Origin: a virus
Virus record (IMG/VR): IMGVR_UViG_3300030943_000113
Span: 1 to 32,171 of that record
Direction: 5' to 3' (one strand)
DNA length: 32,171 nucleotides
The translations under genes and the position numbers were made by a program. Shown piece by piece: positions 2,336 through 27,579 of this stretch (positions within the stretch are counted from its first letter, which is position 1; the number at the start of each line of letters is the position of its first letter). The notes beneath the pieces were generated by a model. It was not told where the DNA came from. It was given only the letters and a program-made list of their open reading frames with translations, and ran no database searches.

Positions 2336-3535
2336 TTACATTATAATATTTCTTTGTAAAACACTAAGCCTATATTCATAAATACTATCGTATGCACAAT
2401 ACTTCATTATTAAATGTGGACCACCTGGTTTGTCTATAAGTTCCTGAATACGATTAATTGAATTAGCATTCTTTTCTTCCTTCGCTTTCAGATAAGGACT
2501 TACTTCACTATCATAATCTACTATACCAAATTGAACATATGTTTGGAATTTTAATCCGGTAACTCCTGTTCTATTATCTAATACATGGGTAGCAAGCATA
2601 GTATCCCAAATCCAATTACGTACTTCTACTCCAAGTATTTCAAAAGACCAAGCGTGCTCATATTTCATATTTTGAGCAATCTTCCCGATATTAGGATTGG
2701 TTAATAAATTAAGAAATAGTTTCCGTGCCTTTCTACTTTTAGGCATCATAAAGACATAGACTAAATCCTCTGAAACGGCAATACTTACACAGATTACTTT
2801 ATGCCCCTCGTCGTGCGGTTTTAAACCAGTAGTTTCATAATCAAAAGCAACATCATCTTTAATGGTATTTAAGACGGTTAAATCATTGTCAAGATATTTT
2901 ATAGTCGGTTCTTTATACTTTGGAAAAGGAATATCTAAATGCGATATAGCATTCCGAAGATCATTTTTCCATACAGTTAAAACTTCCAATTTATCCTTTA
3001 CTTGGAAAGTATCATACGTAGGACAAATCCAAGCTTTAAAATCCTGATCAGGAATACACCAACCACGCCATCTTTCTATATCATTTAAATCCTTTTTCCA
3101 ACGATTACCTATTAAACTATATACTGCCGCACTACCCAACAGAATAATTAGTTTTGGTTTATTATTTTTAATTATTGGATTTACAACAATTTTTCTACAA
3201 CAATCAATTTCATATGTAGTATAGGTATATCCTTGGTCAGGATTATAACAATTATAAGAATAAGTTAATAAACAATCTTCAAACATATCTATTCCTAACT
3301 CAAATAATACTTTTTTTAAATAATCGGCATTTAAACTTTGAAAAGCAGCCCCCATCTTATCATCTATCCTTTCCGGTGATGCATCGATAATAAGTATTTG
3401 CTTTCCAAAATTACCTGTTGGTTGCATTTTAGGAGTTTTACACTTCTTATAAAATCCACAACTTGCACAGGATAAAATCTTTCCTTCAGGACGGGAAGCA
3501 GATTCAGTTTCTTTTATTGAGAAAAAACCTTTCAT
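2336..3535 (-). CDS. UDG-superfamily domain fused to DnaQ-like 3'-5' exonuclease (proofreading subunit)
   Basis: 399 residues, two domains. Residues about 20-200 resemble family 4 uracil-DNA glycosylases. Cys23, Cys26, Cys96 and Cys112 or Cys113 match the spacing of the four iron-sulfur cysteines, and PKLIILLGSAAVYSLIG matches the family's C-terminal core strand. The catalytic loop that usually reads GEAPG is IDASP (50-54), so glycosylase activity is doubtful. Residues about 225-399 form a Pol I-type exonuclease: ExoI Asp232/Glu234 in DYETTG, ExoII Asn289 with Glu293 where Asp is usual, ExoIII Tyr379/Asp383 in YCAYD. It probably proofreads for the polymerase encoded downstream. The start ATG overlaps the stop of the clamp gene as ATGA. 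Confidence 0.88.
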   Translation of the reverse strand: MKGFFSIKETESASRPEGKILSCASCGFYKKCKTPKMQPTGNFGKQILIIDASPERIDDKMGAAFQSLNADYLKKVLFELGIDMFEDCLLTYSYNCYNPDQGYTYTTYEIDCCRKIVVNPIIKNNKPKLIILLGSAAVYSLIGNRWKKDLNDIERWRGWCIPDQDFKAWICPTYDTFQVKDKLEVLTVWKNDLRNAISHLDIPFPKYKEPTIKYLDNDLTVLNTIKDDVAFDYETTGLKPHDEGHKVICVSIAVSEDLVYVFMMPKSRKARKLFLNLLTNPNIGKIAQNMKYEHAWSFEILGVEVRNWIWDTMLATHVLDNRTGVTGLKFQTYVQFGIVDYDSEVSPYLKAKEEKNANSINRIQELIDKPGGPHLIMKYCAYDSIYEYRLSVLQRNIIM

Positions 3536-4955: not shown

Positions 4956-5636
4956 TTATTTTTTTAGTTTATAATTTATTTTAAATTCTTTCTTTTGAAA
5001 CACCCAAAAATAACTGTGATATTTTCTTGCATGATGTTGTGTAGTCCAATGACCTGTTAAACGATTTCTTGCTAATAATATAAATAAGTCTTTCGGATAA
5101 AATCCATATTTTAATGCTTGTTGCATTACCCAACAATGCGTGAAATAATTTCCACCTGTATCAACTGTATCTTGGCATTTAAAGATTACAATTCCATCCG
5201 GTTTTAACAATCTGCTAAACTCTTTTAAACTATCACTATACATTACTTTAAGTTCATTAAAAGAATGAAAGTTTGTAAATCGTTTTACAGTAATTGAACT
5301 TCCTTCACCTGAATTTTCTTTAATTGTACCACCAATTAGAAAAGGGGGATCAAACATTATTATATTTACACATTCGTCCGGTAAAGGTATATTACCACTA
5401 CTTGCTTGTATTACATCTTTTCCTTGAGGAAAGAAATCAAATTTATATTTGGGATCTCGTAATCCTTTTTTATAGAAATTACCAACTGAATATGTTGGGT
5501 CTAAATCAATTTTATTTTGTTTAGCGTGTAAAGAAAGTATATCACTAATTATTGTAAATTGATCATAACCGATACTGCGAATGGAACTTTGTATAGATAG
5601 GAATTGATCATCATCAAATAAATTAATTTTTCCCAT
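4956..5636 (-). CDS. DNA methyltransferase-like protein with DPPF motif
   Basis: 226 residues. DPPF at 96-99 is the catalytic motif IV form of amino-methylating (N6-adenine or N4-cytosine) DNA methyltransferases. The preceding LDPTYSVGNFYKKG (45-58) is found in phage relatives of this group. FKCQDTVDTGGNYF and the C-terminal HWTTQHHARKYHSYFW are probably substrate-side motifs. A glycine-rich SAM motif is not obvious, so the cofactor site is inferred. It may methylate phage DNA, alone or with the modification cassette at 6176-8128. It starts 2 bases from the upstream gene's stop. Target base and specificity cannot be read from sequence. Confidence 0.82.
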   Translation of the reverse strand: MGKINLFDDDQFLSIQSSIRSIGYDQFTIISDILSLHAKQNKIDLDPTYSVGNFYKKGLRDPKYKFDFFPQGKDVIQASSGNIPLPDECVNIIMFDPPFLIGGTIKENSGEGSSITVKRFTNFHSFNELKVMYSDSLKEFSRLLKPDGIVIFKCQDTVDTGGNYFTHCWVMQQALKYGFYPKDLFILLARNRLTGHWTTQHHARKYHSYFWVFQKKEFKINYKLKK

Positions 5637-5638
5637 GA

Positions 5639-6055
5639 TTATTTTCTTCTTTTATTTATGATGTTTATTATTTTTTCTTTCCAATCATTATCGAAAGGAT
5701 CAATTAATATTGTCTTCATTAATCGGTCTGCTTCATCCCTAAGATTTAATATTTTTATTGCAGTAGAATGTATTATCATAGAATCAGGTTGTATAGAAAT
5801 ACTTGAATTAAAAAATTCTACTATCTGTTCTTTTTTCTTTCCTGGCCACCAAGGCATCCTTCCGGTTAAATGATTAATCATTGTACTATACGCTTGATCA
5901 TTACTTTTAAATGTATCAATTACTTGATTTGATTCGGTAAGATAAATTACACAACCTTTCTTATAAGGTTTACTACCAACGATATAATGCCCTGGCCAAT
6001 GTTTAATAAGCTTATCTAAATCCTCCTGATGCGTTTGTTGTGTTGTTCCTGCCAT
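5639..6055 (-). CDS. Hypothetical protein, 138 aa
   Basis: Starts MAGTTQQTHQEDLDKLIKHWPGHY. It has a Trp/Pro-rich centre (GRMPWWPGKKK) and a basic C-terminus. No domain recognised. It lies between the glycosyltransferase cassette and the DPPF methyltransferase, which starts 2 bases after its stop. A 120-base gap lies upstream, so it may be the first gene of a transcript. Confidence 0.72.
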   Translation of the reverse strand: MAGTTQQTHQEDLDKLIKHWPGHYIVGSKPYKKGCVIYLTESNQVIDTFKSNDQAYSTMINHLTGRMPWWPGKKKEQIVEFFNSSISIQPDSMIIHSTAIKILNLRDEADRLMKTILIDPFDNDWKEKIINIINKRRK

Positions 6056-6175: not shown

Positions 6176-7039
6176 TTATTTACCTTCTATTTTCTTTCCT
6201 AAATTCTTTTTATAATCAGGAATATTAACTAATTTCATGCCGTAATTATCTACACCTTTCGGTATTATCAATCCTTCTTTATGAATTAATCTATTTTTTG
6301 CGAATGGTCGGTAATCGACACTGTGTTGCCAACGATGAAATTTCCAAACAACTTCAGTTATAGCAGGATATAATTTTTGTAAAGCTTCTGCCATTTTTAA
6401 TCTTCCATCCTCAATTAAATATAAATTCTCTGTATTTCCACCTTTTACGGTCATAGTAGTTGCTTTACATTGAGCAAAAGCATTAACTAATATCGTGCAC
6501 CATCTATCCTTTAGAGCCATTAAGCATACATCGGTATCATCATTATATATACTTCTCCAACGATATGGAATAGAATTATTTACTAATGTACAAGAATAAA
6601 TACGTGTATTTAAAAAGAAAGGTGGTTGTGGGTCTTTTCTACAACTAAAGAAATCATATTGTAATCCGGAATATGCTACATTTGTATATCTATCTGTAAA
6701 ATCTTCTACACAACGAAATATTGTTCCCGAAGCAACCGGATAATGCATATTTTTATTAAGTCGTAAAAATCCACGAATATTATCATCTAATTGCCAGTGA
6801 CGAGCAAATCCTTTTTTTATAGAATGTTCCATAATCCAACAACGACTACCAATTAATTTCATATCATCCTTTGGTAGAACTAAAATCTTTTTGGGATTAA
6901 TTACTTTAGCATAATTATCGTATTCTGAAGGTTCTACAACAATTTTATATGGAACTTTCATCTTTTCCAAAGCTTTACTTGTAAGTCTGCTTTCCCATCT
7001 ACCTTTCGATGGAATATAAATAGGGTAACGTGGATTCAT
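6176..7039 (-). CDS. TET-associated-type glycosyltransferase (TAGT-like), putative DNA base glycosylation
   Basis: 287 residues from the ATG at 7039, which overlaps the upstream stop as ATGA. A start 15 codons upstream is possible but would bury the junction. The N-terminus PIYIPSKGR, then VVEPSEYDNY (35-43) and HWQLDDNIRG (81-90), with LDDN as the probable nucleotide-sugar/metal motif, match my memory of TET-associated glycosyltransferases, which add sugars to modified pyrimidines in phage DNA. A second acidic motif, NDDTDVCLM, lies further on. The substrate base is unknown because no TET oxygenase or hydroxymethylase lies in this window. It is the last gene of a three-gene overlapping cassette. 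Confidence 0.78.
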   Translation of the reverse strand: MNPRYPIYIPSKGRWESRLTSKALEKMKVPYKIVVEPSEYDNYAKVINPKKILVLPKDDMKLIGSRCWIMEHSIKKGFARHWQLDDNIRGFLRLNKNMHYPVASGTIFRCVEDFTDRYTNVAYSGLQYDFFSCRKDPQPPFFLNTRIYSCTLVNNSIPYRWRSIYNDDTDVCLMALKDRWCTILVNAFAQCKATTMTVKGGNTENLYLIEDGRLKMAEALQKLYPAITEVVWKFHRWQHSVDYRPFAKNRLIHKEGLIIPKGVDNYGMKLVNIPDYKKNLGKKIEGK

Positions 7040-7881
7040 GAGAATAATGAATTTAAGGGTTTTCGTATTGATACTTTTTTCCAATATGTAGGTCGGTTAT
7101 TCCACAAAGTAGTTTTTACTTTCTCAAATCCATGAGATCGTAAAGTATCATTAAAAAGTTTACTAATTTCTTTTCCAGTATATTCAGCTTTTCCGTGGAA
7201 ATATTTAATAAAATGCCCTACCGATAAGGCATTAAAAGCATTAGCTATTATTAAATATTTTGGTTTTGCAATAGTTAAAATAGAAAGTAAATGTTCTACT
7301 GGTCTTTCTATATGTTCAAAATATTCTGAAGCAAAGATTAAATCTGCTTTGCTTAATTTGTTTAAATCTGAAATAATATAGAAATTATATTTTTTCCCAA
7401 ATTCAGTTGCTATTTTATATTGACTTGTAGTTTCTAAATTAGTACCATAAACATCAGCCTTTGGAAATAATTCTTTCAGAACTCCTGTGGTATATCCAAA
7501 ACCACATCCTAAATCAACTACACTATCTATATTCCCAATATCTTGTATAATGCTTTTATCGGTCAAGGATTTAGGAGAATTAATAGAAAGTAGATATGGA
7601 CGGGAATAGACAATCCAACATGCCCATAAATCACTTAAATAATAAGTTCCATCATATATAGAGTAATCTGGTTTTCCATTCTTTAAAGATTCATACCATT
7701 TAATTTCTGTTTCTTGAAATATTCGTAGTGAATCCCTAACAGATTTATTTCCTTTATAATATTTAATAGCATTTATAGCCAATGAAAAAGCTATATCTTT
7801 ATTAAATACAGAATATTTAGAACACTTTTTAAGGTATTCTAAAAGATCATCTTTTCCGATTTTATTAGATATACTATTCAT
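7036..7881 (-). CDS. Class I SAM-dependent methyltransferase-fold protein
   Basis: 281 residues from the ATG at 7881; an in-frame TTG one codon earlier is less likely. The SAM-binding motif I is VVDLGCGFGY (121-130). It is followed by an acidic strand end and by SEYFEHIERPVEHLL, typical of the post-motif region of Methyltransf-type enzymes. The N-terminal 110 residues are helical and unassigned. The gene overlaps its upstream neighbour by 8 bases and the glycosyltransferase by 4, so the three are probably translated together. It may act on the same DNA base or on the added group; a non-DNA substrate is equally open. Confidence 0.82.
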   Translation of the reverse strand: MNSISNKIGKDDLLEYLKKCSKYSVFNKDIAFSLAINAIKYYKGNKSVRDSLRIFQETEIKWYESLKNGKPDYSIYDGTYYLSDLWACWIVYSRPYLLSINSPKSLTDKSIIQDIGNIDSVVDLGCGFGYTTGVLKELFPKADVYGTNLETTSQYKIATEFGKKYNFYIISDLNKLSKADLIFASEYFEHIERPVEHLLSILTIAKPKYLIIANAFNALSVGHFIKYFHGKAEYTGKEISKLFNDTLRSHGFEKVKTTLWNNRPTYWKKVSIRKPLNSLFS

Positions 7882-8128
7882 CAATATATTTTTTTGATCT
7901 TAATTTCCACTTTGCTATTGGGAACCAAACTGCCCGTGTCTTTACTGTTAGTTTTTGCCCTATTAATTCAGCAAATGTATCTAAATCTTCTTTGGTACGA
8001 AAACTAACTTTTATACTACGAAATGGGGTTAAATCATTTTGTATAAATTCGGGCATCCCTTTCCATTCTTTTTGCCATAAAATAGTTTCCTCCTCATCGA
8101 AAAGAGGTTTTAATTTATCTTTCTTCAT
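7874..8128 (-). CDS. Small conserved phage protein with WKGMPEF motif
   Basis: 84 residues. The core WKGMPEFIQNDLTPFRSIKV, then FAELIGQKLTVKTRAVWFP, resembles a small domain I recall from other phages, next to or fused with DNA-modification or ParB-like genes. That link is from memory and weak. It has no membrane segment or cysteine cluster. It opens the cassette and overlaps the methyltransferase gene by 8 bases, so a role as a partner of those enzymes is a reasonable guess. It ends with TAG, evidence against TAG recoding. Confidence 0.72.
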   Translation of the reverse strand: MKKDKLKPLFDEEETILWQKEWKGMPEFIQNDLTPFRSIKVSFRTKEDLDTFAELIGQKLTVKTRAVWFPIAKWKLRSKKYIDE

Positions 8129-8203: not shown

Positions 8204-9055
8204 TTACTTCAGGGTAATAACGCCATCTTTTTCACTTAAAATACCCCATTCGCTTGCGGCAGGAAGGATATACTTCAAAATGTGAATCGTTTGAGGAAGA
8301 TTCGTTTTTCCACCGACCTTTACGAAGTCGTTATCGGCAGTAGCGCAAACCTTAGTAATGGCTGTTGGTTTTGCAATTGCCATAACAGCTTTACAAATAC
8401 ATACCAGGCGTGAAGGAGTAATAATGGTTTTCCCAGGAAAAGCTTTTTTAACCTTTTTAACAGGCTCTTCATCTTCGTCGTCATCCTCAACAACTGGTGC
8501 TTTCTTACCTTTCTTTGCGGGGACAACGGGTTCTGGAGCAACGACTTTCTTACCTTTCTTTGCAGGGACAACGGGTTCATCATCTTCCTCATCCTCATCC
8601 TCGTCTTCATCCTCGTCAATAACGACAGGAACTTTCTTACTTTTCTTTTCCGGTACAGTAGGAGCAACTACCTTTTTGCCTTTCTTTACAGGGGCAACGG
8701 GTTCGTCGTCTTCATCCTCGTCGTCTTCATCCTCGTCTTCTTCATCTTCTTCTTCTTCATCTTCTTCATCTTCTTCATCTTCTTCATCTTCTTCATCTTC
8801 TTCTTCAACGACAACTGGAGCTTTCTTACCCTTTGCAGCAGGGGCAGTTGCTTTAGCAGGTTTTACGCCAAGGATTTCATTAATCACTGCCTGGGTTTCT
8901 TCGGAAAACTCATCGTCCGGAGTGATATGTTTGCTTGCTGCTTTGATCCCTTTGGTCAATACATCAGCATTACCTTTAACGTTAATCTCAGGACTTAATC
9001 CCATTACGTCGTTCAGCTCTGTGGCTGCTTTCTTCAATATTTTGTCTGTTGCCAT
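8204..9055 (-). CDS. Acidic/basic repeat protein, 283 aa
   Basis: An N-terminal domain of about 65 residues is followed by about 140 residues of low complexity. Long Asp/Glu runs alternate with Lys-rich islands of the type PVVPAKKGKKVVAP, at least five of them. A C-terminal domain of about 80 residues begins near FPGKTIITPSRLV and could be a winged helix. Acidic tails of this kind occur in DNA mimics, histone-chaperone-like proteins and single-strand-binding proteins, but I cannot assign one. It lies just downstream of the helicase genes and ends at a hairpin. The coding DNA is less AT-rich than its neighbours. Confidence 0.8.
   Translation of the reverse strand: MATDKILKKAATELNDVMGLSPEINVKGNADVLTKGIKAASKHITPDDEFSEETQAVINEILGVKPAKATAPAAKGKKAPVVVEEEDEEDEEDEEDEEDEEEEDEEDEDEDDEDEDDEPVAPVKKGKKVVAPTVPEKKSKKVPVVIDEDEDEDEDEEDDEPVVPAKKGKKVVAPEPVVPAKKGKKAPVVEDDDEDEEPVKKVKKAFPGKTIITPSRLVCICKAVMAIAKPTAITKVCATADNDFVKVGGKTNLPQTIHILKYILPAASEWGILSEKDGVITLK
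8735..8806 (-). repeat. Tandem CTTCTTCAT-type microsatellite inside the acidic gene
   Basis: About six to seven near-perfect 9-base units (CTTCTTCAT on the plus strand) encode a Glu-Glu-Asp repeat. Units of 9 keep the reading frame, so slippage would change only the length of the acidic tract. Confidence 0.85.
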
Positions 9056-14572: not shown

Positions 14573-14818
14573 TTAATCCTTATCAAAAATATTTGTAGGG
14601 TGATTCTTTTTGATTTGTAAAACCAAAGCATCAATAAACTCAATGTTATTAACAATTGGTTCAATTAAAGTACTAATCATTGGAAATCCTTCGTCATCCT
14701 CTTCACAGTTTTTATACAACCAAGACATAAGTTCTTCTTTGGTTTCATCATACAATGCCTCCTTTTCGGTATCATACTGATTACCATTTTCCGTTTCAAA
14801 CTTTGTAACTTGTTTCAT
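14573..14818 (-). CDS. Hypothetical acidic protein, 81 aa
   Basis: Starts MKQVTKFETENGNQYDTEKE; strongly acidic in the middle (NCEEDDEGFP). The opening phrase, Phe-x-Thr-x-x-Gly then YDTEKEA, is common in small phage proteins of unknown role. No membrane segment. Confidence 0.68.
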   Translation of the reverse strand: MKQVTKFETENGNQYDTEKEALYDETKEELMSWLYKNCEEDDEGFPMISTLIEPIVNNIEFIDALVLQIKKNHPTNIFDKD

Positions 14819-14824
14819 AACTTT

Positions 14825-15013
14825 TTAGTTTTTTTTATTTTCAAATTTAGAACATTTAACCCAACTTTCTTCTTCATCCCAACCATAACAGTTAGGGCAA
14901 TCTTTACAGGTAGAACTTCCTATCATTACCTTTTCCGTAAGAATGTGAGGACACCTTGTCGTACACCATTTATCAGGATCTTCCCCTTTGGTAGTAAATT
15001 TAGTTTTATCCAT
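14825..15013 (-). CDS. Cysteine-rich small protein, 62 aa
   Basis: Six cysteines in two groups (CTTRCPH, then CKDCPNC) plus one near the end suggest one or two zinc sites. Starts MDKTKFTTKGEDPDKWC. It lies in the row of tiny genes between primase and SNF2 helicase. Function unknown. Confidence 0.7.
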   Translation of the reverse strand: MDKTKFTTKGEDPDKWCTTRCPHILTEKVMIGSSTCKDCPNCYGWDEEESWVKCSKFENKKN

Positions 15014-15016
15014 GAT

Positions 15017-15190
15017 TTATTTTCCCTTTCTTTTAGCAAGTTTCATGTGAATACTATGTTCCTTTCCTATTTCTTTATAATGCTCCGAATTATCATCTAT
15101 CCAGCAACGGCTTCCTCCTCCTTTTTGAGAAGGTTGATTAGGAATGTAAACCGGATTCTTTGAAAGATTAACCTTTTTGTTTGCTTTCAT
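15017..15190 (-). CDS. Small basic hypothetical protein, 57 aa
   Basis: Starts MKANKKVNLSKNPVYIPNQP, with a Gly-rich turn (KGGGSRCW) and a Lys/Arg-rich end. The start overlaps the upstream gene by 23 bases, more than most junctions here, so a later start cannot be excluded. It fills the gap up to the Cys-rich gene. Confidence 0.58.
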   Translation of the reverse strand: MKANKKVNLSKNPVYIPNQPSQKGGGSRCWIDDNSEHYKEIGKEHSIHMKLAKRKGK

Positions 15191-25847: not shown

Positions 25848-25957
25848 TGCCGGCTGGTGAACCAATCTTATGGTGGAGGTTGTAACCCATCCGCCTGGCA
25901 CCAGCGATGTCCGCACCTTTATAGGGTTGCGGACTGGCTGGGTGAACTAATATACCG
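25848..25957 (-). promoter_or_regulatory. GC-rich structured leader of the basic protein gene
   Basis: This stretch is far more GC-rich than its surroundings. It has inverted repeats GTCCGCA/TGCGGAC (around a 12-base loop with its own CC/GG pairs) and CTGGTG/CACCAG. Near-identical direct repeats GGCTGGTGAAC and GGCTGGGTGAAC lie at the two ends. It sits between the 40-aa membrane gene and the 171-aa gene, so it may form an mRNA 5' structure or terminator. Confidence 0.5.
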
Positions 25958-25959
25958 GA

Positions 25960-26082
25960 TCACCGTTTGACTGCCTTTTTGGGTGTTGGAGTGGTCAGGT
26001 ATGCTGCGACAAAGGCAAGGACAAAAAAGATAGCTACAAAAGCTACTAAAAATGCTGGGTTAAAAAAGTACTCTGAGTTCAT
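25960..26082 (-). CDS. Tiny membrane protein, 40 aa, first leftward gene
   Basis: MNSEYFFNPAFLVAFVAIFF and onward: one hydrophobic helix, then a basic tail (TPKKAVKR). It shares the higher GC content of the gene downstream. It lies about 75 bases from a TATTTTTG promoter-like box. Probably an inner-membrane peptide made first on infection; role unknown. Confidence 0.65.
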   Translation of the reverse strand: MNSEYFFNPAFLVAFVAIFFVLAFVAAYLTTPTPKKAVKR

Positions 26083-26155
26083 AATAATTAGTATAAATGT
26101 TATTTAACAATATAATCGGATACTCTGTTTGCTTCCGCTGGGTGTAATATACGCA

Positions 26156-26163
26156 CAAAAATA
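26156..26163 (-). promoter_or_regulatory. Candidate leftward promoter -7 box (TATTTTTG)
   Basis: Exact match to TAnnTTTG on the minus strand, about 74 bases before the first leftward ATG. It is embedded in AAAAATACCGGAT, which also occurs at 25116-25128. A clear -33 TTTG was not found, so the match is suggestive only. Confidence 0.4.
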
Positions 26164-26322
26164 CCGGATTGATACTGAATCACTAAAATATATTTTATCG
26201 TTTGTAGCCTATTTATTAAGCGCATGAAGCATCGTTAATATTAAAATAAGATAGTAATCTATTATATAAAAATAACGTCTTAAAATAGGTTTAAAATGCG
26301 ATTAAAACAACGTCTTAATATA

Positions 26323-26360
26323 CGCAATAGTATATACTTAATATAATATATACTATTGCG
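26323..26360. repeat. Perfect 14-bp inverted repeat
   Basis: CGCAATAGTATATA (26323-26336) and its exact complement (26347-26360) flank a 10-base AT loop; the right arm abuts the first GCGCAAA. It could be an operator, an origin element or a transcript hairpin. No T-run follows on either side. Confidence 0.8.
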
Positions 26361-27579
26361 CAAACGTATAAAATAAATGCGTGAAATAGCGCAAAAGGTA
26401 TAATATCCGGCAAATAAATATATCGTATTAAAAGTATTGCCGGTGATCCGGATATAGTAAGGAAGTAAATGTGAATTGCCAGGTATAGAATAAAAACAAA
26501 AGAATACCGGCAAAAAGAGTAAATTAATAAATACGAATAGTATAATATAGATAGATAGTATAATGTGAAACACCCAGGTATAGAATGTATATAGATAGCG
26601 CAAATAGATAGTTATAAGAGTATAGATAGAATATAAAGATATATCGGATATATATTAAAATGCCTAAAATGGGCAGAAAATGTGGTGTGACGTGGTCCAC
26701 CCAGTCACCCTATTAAAAGTAGTCAAATAACCGTAAACAAAAGGGTGAACACGTAGCATGGTGTAAATAAGCGCAAATAAGACGTTATTGCTTACAGATA
26801 GGGATGTGTATAGGTAGGTAATAGTATATATATAATAGACTATACTATATGAGTAGTAATGGGATAATAAATCAATGTGATTCGAATGATTGAAAGGTGG
26901 ACCCAGGGTCATGACGTTCCTCATAATTGTGTAAATTTTTTAGTCATTATTTGAAATAACCTTTTATATATTCAAAATATTTTACCCTTTTTCCAAATAT
27001 CCCATATATATATATATATTCATTTGCCATATATCCCTATTGTACGTTTAAATATACTTCGGTATATACTATCTATTATATATAGGATATATTCTTATTT
27101 ACTTTATTTGCGTTTTTATATTTGTAAATCATACCGGCATGAATTAATAATAGTATATATACTTACTTATACTATTAGTATTTCTATTTACCGTTTATCG
27201 CAAATTAGGGTATATATCATGCCGTTATATACGCATTTTATATTTACCTTTTTGTAGAATATTATTACATTTATTGGGAAGGGTACAAAAATTTCTAAAA
27301 AAATATAGGATTTTTGCAAATGTATTATTTGCATAGTATAGGAATTTATTCATGCCGTAACTACATTTTAGTATTTGCGAGTATTGGTATTTAAAAGTAA
27401 TTAAAAAACTTTATATTAAATATAGAATTTAACATGTTAAGTATGCATTTATTTATTTTATTTTAGCAAACAATAGGATTTCAACTTGTTGTCTCAAATA
27501 TATTTTTAAATTTCGGATCAATTCAATTTATTTACAATCCGCAAACCTATTTTATAATCAATTACGCACATAAAATCAC

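Follow-up and report, generated by a model that had tools for sequence, protein, structure and literature searches.

The TET-associated-type glycosyltransferases (TAGTs) were reportedly defined in a paper of 2013. They are GT-A enzymes that lie near GT2; the T6 member of the family (PF20691) puts a second glucose on glucosylated hydroxymethylcytosine (hmC), and a solitary TAGT is present in 288 of 753 phage genomes, where it may be a novel transferase (PMC13216743). The enzyme described here belongs by profile to the same family as the DNA glycosyltransferases of T2 and T6 (beta-glucosyl-HMC-alpha-glucosyltransferase; PF20691, phrog_842). It differs from them in having an MPEF part (with a WKGMPEF motif) in its clade and a methyltransferase in its gene cassette, and the stretch of DNA analysed here is without a companion alpha- or beta-glucosyltransferase and without a hydroxymethylase. 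The two clades are distant, and a tblastn search at E ≤ 1e-5 returned no Tequatrovirus. Nearer relatives, with a TAGT about 40–45% identical, are found in Aeromonas phage Aeh1, Pectobacterium phage POP12, Tenacibaculum phage PTm1 and Vibrio phages; these have the same two parts, but in one polypeptide and without an inserted methyltransferase, and several of them have thymidylate-synthase superfamily genes. Nonlabens phage P12024L, with an array of TET, TAGT and DNA methylase genes, is a likeness in being a small Bacteroidota phage whose TAGT adjoins a methyltransferase, but it differs in its TET/JBP oxygenase, its DPPY-type DNA methylase and the absence of MPEF. A pentose on cytosine in phage DNA is known from Shewanella phage Thanatos and from Mosigvirus RB69/NP, and Thanatos encodes UDP-xylose metabolism (PMC12838424, PMC13390438). 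A UDP-xylose synthase gene likewise abuts TAGT in three of the loci collected here; the base hydroxyl, however, is made in Mosigvirus by a thymidylate-synthase-type enzyme, for which Thanatos encodes a candidate, and none was seen here. In the open-access literature searched, we found MPEF nowhere described as the TAGT N-terminus, nor any account of an exchangeable slot or of phage DNA bearing a methylated sugar.

The DNA that was analysed (the window) is a linear virus contig of 32,171 bases. It is probably a fragment, and the absence of a gene from it therefore proves little. The three genes of the cassette and the two that follow are listed below, with the cassette genes taken from their ATG starts.

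7874..8128, minus strand: MPEF protein, 84 aa, with the WKGMPEF motif; putative separate N-terminal part or subunit of TAGT
7872..7884, minus strand: junction GATGAATAG(T), end of the MPEF gene and start of the methyltransferase gene
7036..7881, minus strand: class I SAM-dependent methyltransferase, 281 aa (Methyltransf_23/11); putative sugar-tailoring enzyme
6176..7039, minus strand: TAGT glycosyltransferase, 287 aa (PF20691); DDN and N-D-D-T-D motifs conserved
5639..6055, minus strand: open reading frame separating cassette and DPPF gene; matched neither Pfam nor PHROG
4956..5636, minus strand: DPPF DNA (adenine/cytosine-N4) methyltransferase (phrog_24333); probably not part of the cassette

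The preliminary description had reported three genes overlapping by 8 and 4 bases, and the coordinates agree: MPEF and the methyltransferase share 8 bp (7874–7881), the methyltransferase and TAGT 4 bp (7036–7039, ATGA). The MPEF gene ends in GATGAATAG, inside which ATGAAT is the start of the methyltransferase, and TAGT starts with ATGAAT again. In relatives, GATGAATCC combines the MPEF end with the TAGT start, and MPEF/TAGT gene pairs usually overlap via the conserved GATGAATCCTAA. The methyltransferase of the window thus sits exactly at the junction between MPEF and TAGT, which in the nearest TAGT relatives (64–70% identity) abut without an insert. Pairs of relatives gave dN/dS values of 0.03–0.12 for all three genes; since these are under purifying selection, the cassette is not a chance arrangement. 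Elsewhere in the window, a very acidic, lysine-rich repeat protein (8204–9055) adjoins the cassette, a similar acidic protein following TAGT in another contig (L005). The polymerase and exonuclease portions of a family A DNA polymerase are in separate reading frames (354–1745 and 2336–3535) with two small ones between them; at its N-terminus the exonuclease frame weakly matches a UDG-like domain (PF03167, 21.6 bits against a cut-off of 24.3). A stretch at about 25900–27500 holds no convincing gene, shows a change of sign in GC skew and lies between mostly minus-strand and mostly plus-strand genes; it contains a perfect 14-bp inverted repeat (26323–26360) and may be an origin or a divergent promoter region. 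Scanning the window for Rfam families and tRNAs gave no matches. A twin contig is almost wholly identical to the window where the two coincide, but one segment (L002:1853–2230 against window 14810–15190) differs, with a protein identity of 79–83%.

The glycosyltransferase had been described as of the TET-associated type, and comparison with the TAGT profile confirmed this: PF20691 matched with E = 2.6e-41 and 142.3 bits (cut-off 27.5) over profile positions 1–205 of 205. The protein also matched phrog_842 (beta-glucosyl-HMC-alpha-glucosyltransferase; E = 1.5e-34). Residues D85, D86 and D168 were invariant in an alignment of 14 TAGT relatives, which provides the conserved acidic, DxD-like residues expected of a GT-A enzyme. 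Sequence searches of the PDB with TAGT and MPEF gave no meaningful match.

MPEF is the small WKGMPEF protein of the preliminary description, and its profile matches the N-terminal segment of full-length TAGTs. The closest TAGTs of annotated phages (Aeh1, POP12, PTm1, Vibrio phages 1.076.O and 1.124.O, and Kuja) carry about 100–140 extra N-terminal residues, and the MPEF profile matches exactly this extension in Aeh1 (E = 1.2e-16), POP12 (7.5e-15) and PTm1 (8e-13), as well as the TAGT N-termini of Vibrio phages 1.076.O and 1.124.O. By these profile matches, MPEF is equivalent to the N-terminus of the full-length enzymes, here encoded by a gene of its own. The association is nearly constant: 111 of 117 TAGT matches in IMG/VR, which include some overlapping stretches of one contig, have MPEF adjacent (94), fused (11) or within 1.5 kb (6). 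In bacterial genomes, 39 of 44 TAGT loci have it adjacent (29) or fused (10), and these loci presumably lie mostly in prophages. With MPEF as the sole query 77 further loci were obtained, every one with a TAGT (72 adjacent, 5 within 2.5 kb). Nothing else in the surrounding 7 kb or so is as constant as MPEF, the next-commonest neighbours being ordinary phage genes such as the terminase (36 of 108 loci). The AlphaFold model of MPEF alone had a pLDDT of 86 and a pTM of 0.49 with its strands unpaired, because of which no independent fold could be named; the unpaired strands would fit a segment that completes TAGT rather than folding alone. Vibrio phage Kuja has two full-length MPEF-TAGT genes in tandem (L015:5581–8269). 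The neighbours of MPEF-TAGT in Rhodovulum euryhalinum (L183:4747–8008) include a PAPS-reductase-like gene, genes that by eye are CRISPR RAMP-like and, close by, a probable C5 DNA methylase.

The methyltransferase belongs to class I, as first described (Methyltransf_23, 28.3 bits, cut-off 27; Methyltransf_11, 28.5 bits, cut-off 21.2), and has the SAM motif DLGCGFG. It is not of the DNA-methylase type; its model is like small-molecule O-methyltransferases, and the gene is one of several exchangeable ones. The protein matched none of the DNA-methylase families of Pfam, only generic class I families; PADLOC gave no match for it, and a tblastn search of annotated phages found no relative. The AF2 model (mean pLDDT 90) has the Rossmann methyltransferase fold, and structure comparison (VIA, PDB) gave small-molecule O-methyltransferases as best matches (Z ∼13), among them sugar methyltransferases such as CalS10 at Z 12.6; the fold is common to many class I methyltransferases and does not in itself show the substrate. 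DNA methylases were absent among the top structural matches listed, although this is no proof against them. Residue 148, which ends the second strand, is Asn (GTN) in 13 of 13 aligned relatives; an acidic residue is usual there in class I enzymes.

A search with the methyltransferase as the sole query yielded 16 loci, one of them a near-identical twin of the window. A TAGT is nearby in 13 of the 15 others, and the two without one are short contigs (10.0 and 5.3 kb); several loci are near-copies and are therefore not independent counts. The order MPEF-methyltransferase-TAGT occurs in the window and in L060, whereas in L050, L053, L055 and L056 the methyltransferase follows MPEF-TAGT. There are three further cases: L102 and L203 share the latter order, and in L143 the methyltransferase precedes a fused MPEF-TAGT. 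On the TAGT tree, which was built quickly and includes some long rows, the presence of the methyltransferase requires 8 changes, at least 5 of which are forced by well-supported branches. By this tree, the gene has been joined to TAGT repeatedly; it occurs in only a minority of TAGT loci.

Other loci have other enzymes in the same place. Between MPEF and TAGT we found an FkbM methyltransferase (L250; PF05050, 2.8e-16), a radical SAM/SPASM enzyme whose gene overlaps both neighbours (L095:7049–8005; 1.3e-8 and 1.5e-6), a group-1-like glycosyltransferase (L177; 0.0043, below cut-off) and an uncertain gene (L266). A relative of the L177 protein follows TAGT in L164 (2.9e-4, below cut-off), and both are probable second glycosyltransferases. 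A UDP-glucuronate decarboxylase (UDP-xylose synthase) gene lies directly after TAGT in L086, L120 and L243 (E = 8.8e-115, 4.6e-100 and 7.3e-119, respectively, against human UXS1), and in L057 TAGT, a sugar-nucleotide epimerase/dehydratase and the methyltransferase stand in a row. The window itself has no sugar-nucleotide enzyme. Gene order across these loci indicates that the place between or beside MPEF and TAGT is an exchangeable slot for sugar-modifying enzymes. Because sugar-nucleotide and sugar-decorating genes surround TAGT, the methyltransferase is read as a sugar-tailoring or small-molecule enzyme, for which the general fold also speaks.

We propose, with moderate confidence, that MPEF and TAGT are the two subunits of a DNA glycosyltransferase and that the cassette's methyltransferase tailors the transferred sugar. 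MPEF would probably help TAGT to bind DNA or keep it active; TAGT would transfer a sugar from a nucleotide sugar onto a base of the phage DNA; and the methyltransferase would methylate that sugar before or after transfer. The product would be DNA carrying a methylated sugar and resistant to restriction enzymes. The sequences show the TAGT family, the identity of MPEF with the TAGT N-terminus, the insertion at their junction, the recurrent link of methyltransferase and TAGT, and the slot with its exchangeable genes; from these we infer that DNA receives the sugar, that the sugar receives the methyl group and that the phage gains protection.

How the base would be prepared was considered from the searches for acceptor-making enzymes. 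The preliminary description had seen no oxygenase or hydroxymethylase, and searches with PF12851 (TET/JBP) and PF00303 (thymidylate-synthase superfamily) found neither in the window. The observation extends to 27 further, related TAGT contigs (26–334 kb, probably fragments), in which neither a TET/JBP gene nor a thymidylate-synthase superfamily gene scored over threshold. The hydroxyl may be the product of an unrecognised enzyme, the glycosylated group may be a different one on the base, or a hydroxymethylase may be encoded in the missing parts. The last would be the conventional arrangement: TAGT would put a plain sugar on hmC or hmU in the manner of T-even and ViI-like phages, with the methyltransferase as a passenger. 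The window is indeed probably a fragment, and large phages with a fused MPEF-TAGT (Aeh1, PTm1, Kuja and POP12) do have thymidylate-synthase superfamily genes, sometimes two. Two close relatives (G002 and G006) have a thymidylate-synthase-type gene just upstream of MPEF; these genes, however, keep the Asn (PFNIAS) typical of dUMP enzymes and may be plain thymidylate synthases. In this superfamily the Asn marks dUMP enzymes and an Asp dCMP enzymes. The lack of such genes in related contigs of up to 334 kb also speaks against a conventional arrangement, and a passenger would not be linked to TAGT as the methyltransferase is (13 of 15 other loci); we consider this arrangement fairly unlikely. Neither TET/JBP nor thymidylate synthase was retained as a partner of the cassette: among the first 18 records only P12024L has a TET/JBP gene, and the gene in G002 and G006 is of the dUMP type.

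The nature of the target is indicated by fusions. Among longer MPEF proteins preceding TAGT, 14 of the 31 match the ParB N-terminal domain (ParB_N; best E = 9.7e-13), and in L114 the ParB-like, MPEF and TAGT parts are in one open frame. UDG-like domains are present at the TAGT C-terminus in L143 (8778–9284, E = 7e-6) and L100 (8778–9293, E = 4e-4), and in L186 a UDG-like gene (797–1249, E = 3.7e-7) directly follows TAGT. These ParB-like and UDG-like fusions and neighbours are the best evidence in this analysis for DNA as the target, and they bear on the alternative that the sugar goes to a virion protein or to some other acceptor than DNA. In favour of this alternative, TAGTs are near the GT2/GT-A group with its many acceptors (PMC13216743), the gene of Vibrio phage 1.076.O lies between portal and head morphogenesis genes, and surface-polysaccharide pathways often include sugar-nucleotide and FkbM genes. 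The fusions point to DNA, however, as does the characterised T6 member of the family, which acts on it (PMC13216743), and a non-DNA target seems distinctly unlikely. Glycosylation of phage DNA is the best-supported function of the cassette, with DNA as the probable target on the basis of domain content. Of the base hypermodification put forward in the preliminary description, the glycosyltransferase and DNA glycosylation survive, on the TAGT profile, the T6 relative and the ParB and UDG fusions; the small protein and the methyltransferase are assigned other roles here, and the DPPF gene is left out. In contigs of Pantoea and Erwinia (L157 and L158), ParB-like-MPEF and TAGT genes adjoin terminase-like genes, and just upstream in L157 are a different class I methyltransferase (PF13489, 8e-11) and a glycosyltransferase-like gene.

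The class I methyltransferase could instead methylate the base or nucleotide and so make the position on which TAGT later acts. This would supply the acceptor-making enzyme that is otherwise missing, and the methyltransferase does lie near a TAGT in nearly every locus with context. Its matches are nevertheless to generic class I families, by profile, and to small-molecule methyltransferases, by profile and fold; moreover, most TAGT loci are without it, so that it cannot be a general acceptor maker, and we regard this as improbable.

The DPPF protein is a DNA methyltransferase (phrog_24333, E = 1.6e-56; PF01555, 23.7 bits, below cut-off). Its distance of 1.1 kb from the cassette had been overstated, its start being 540 bp from the TAGT stop with the single reading frame 5639–6055 between. 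Membership of the same base-hypermodification pathway, for which the shared strand, the closeness (0.5 kb) and the presence in L056/L061 of a DPPF relative, also at some 5 kb from the cassette, could be cited, is highly improbable, since N6/N4 methylases occur in only 7 of 29 TAGT contigs, mostly far away, and the DPPF gene is thus not a conserved partner. With C5 methylases in 2 of the 29, DNA methylases were rejected as constant partners of TAGT.

Returning to the two-subunit glycosyltransferase with a tailoring methyltransferase, a wider reading can be offered tentatively. Cassettes made of MPEF, an exchangeable tailoring enzyme and TAGT may be modular and place varied and additionally modified sugars on DNA without a thymidylate-synthase-type hydroxymethylase or a TET oxygenase, the acceptor being a base modified by an unrecognised route or a canonical base; the product in the window would be a methylated sugar on DNA. 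In the loci compared here, a large group of TAGTs has an obligate small partner that is the enzyme's own N-terminal part. Relatives exist in culturable bacteria, and the UDP-xylose synthase beside TAGT is a concrete candidate for supplying the donor. If the target is DNA, phages would diversify the sugars of their genomes as bacteria diversify those of their surfaces, with consequences for defence by restriction, by CRISPR and by modification-dependent systems.
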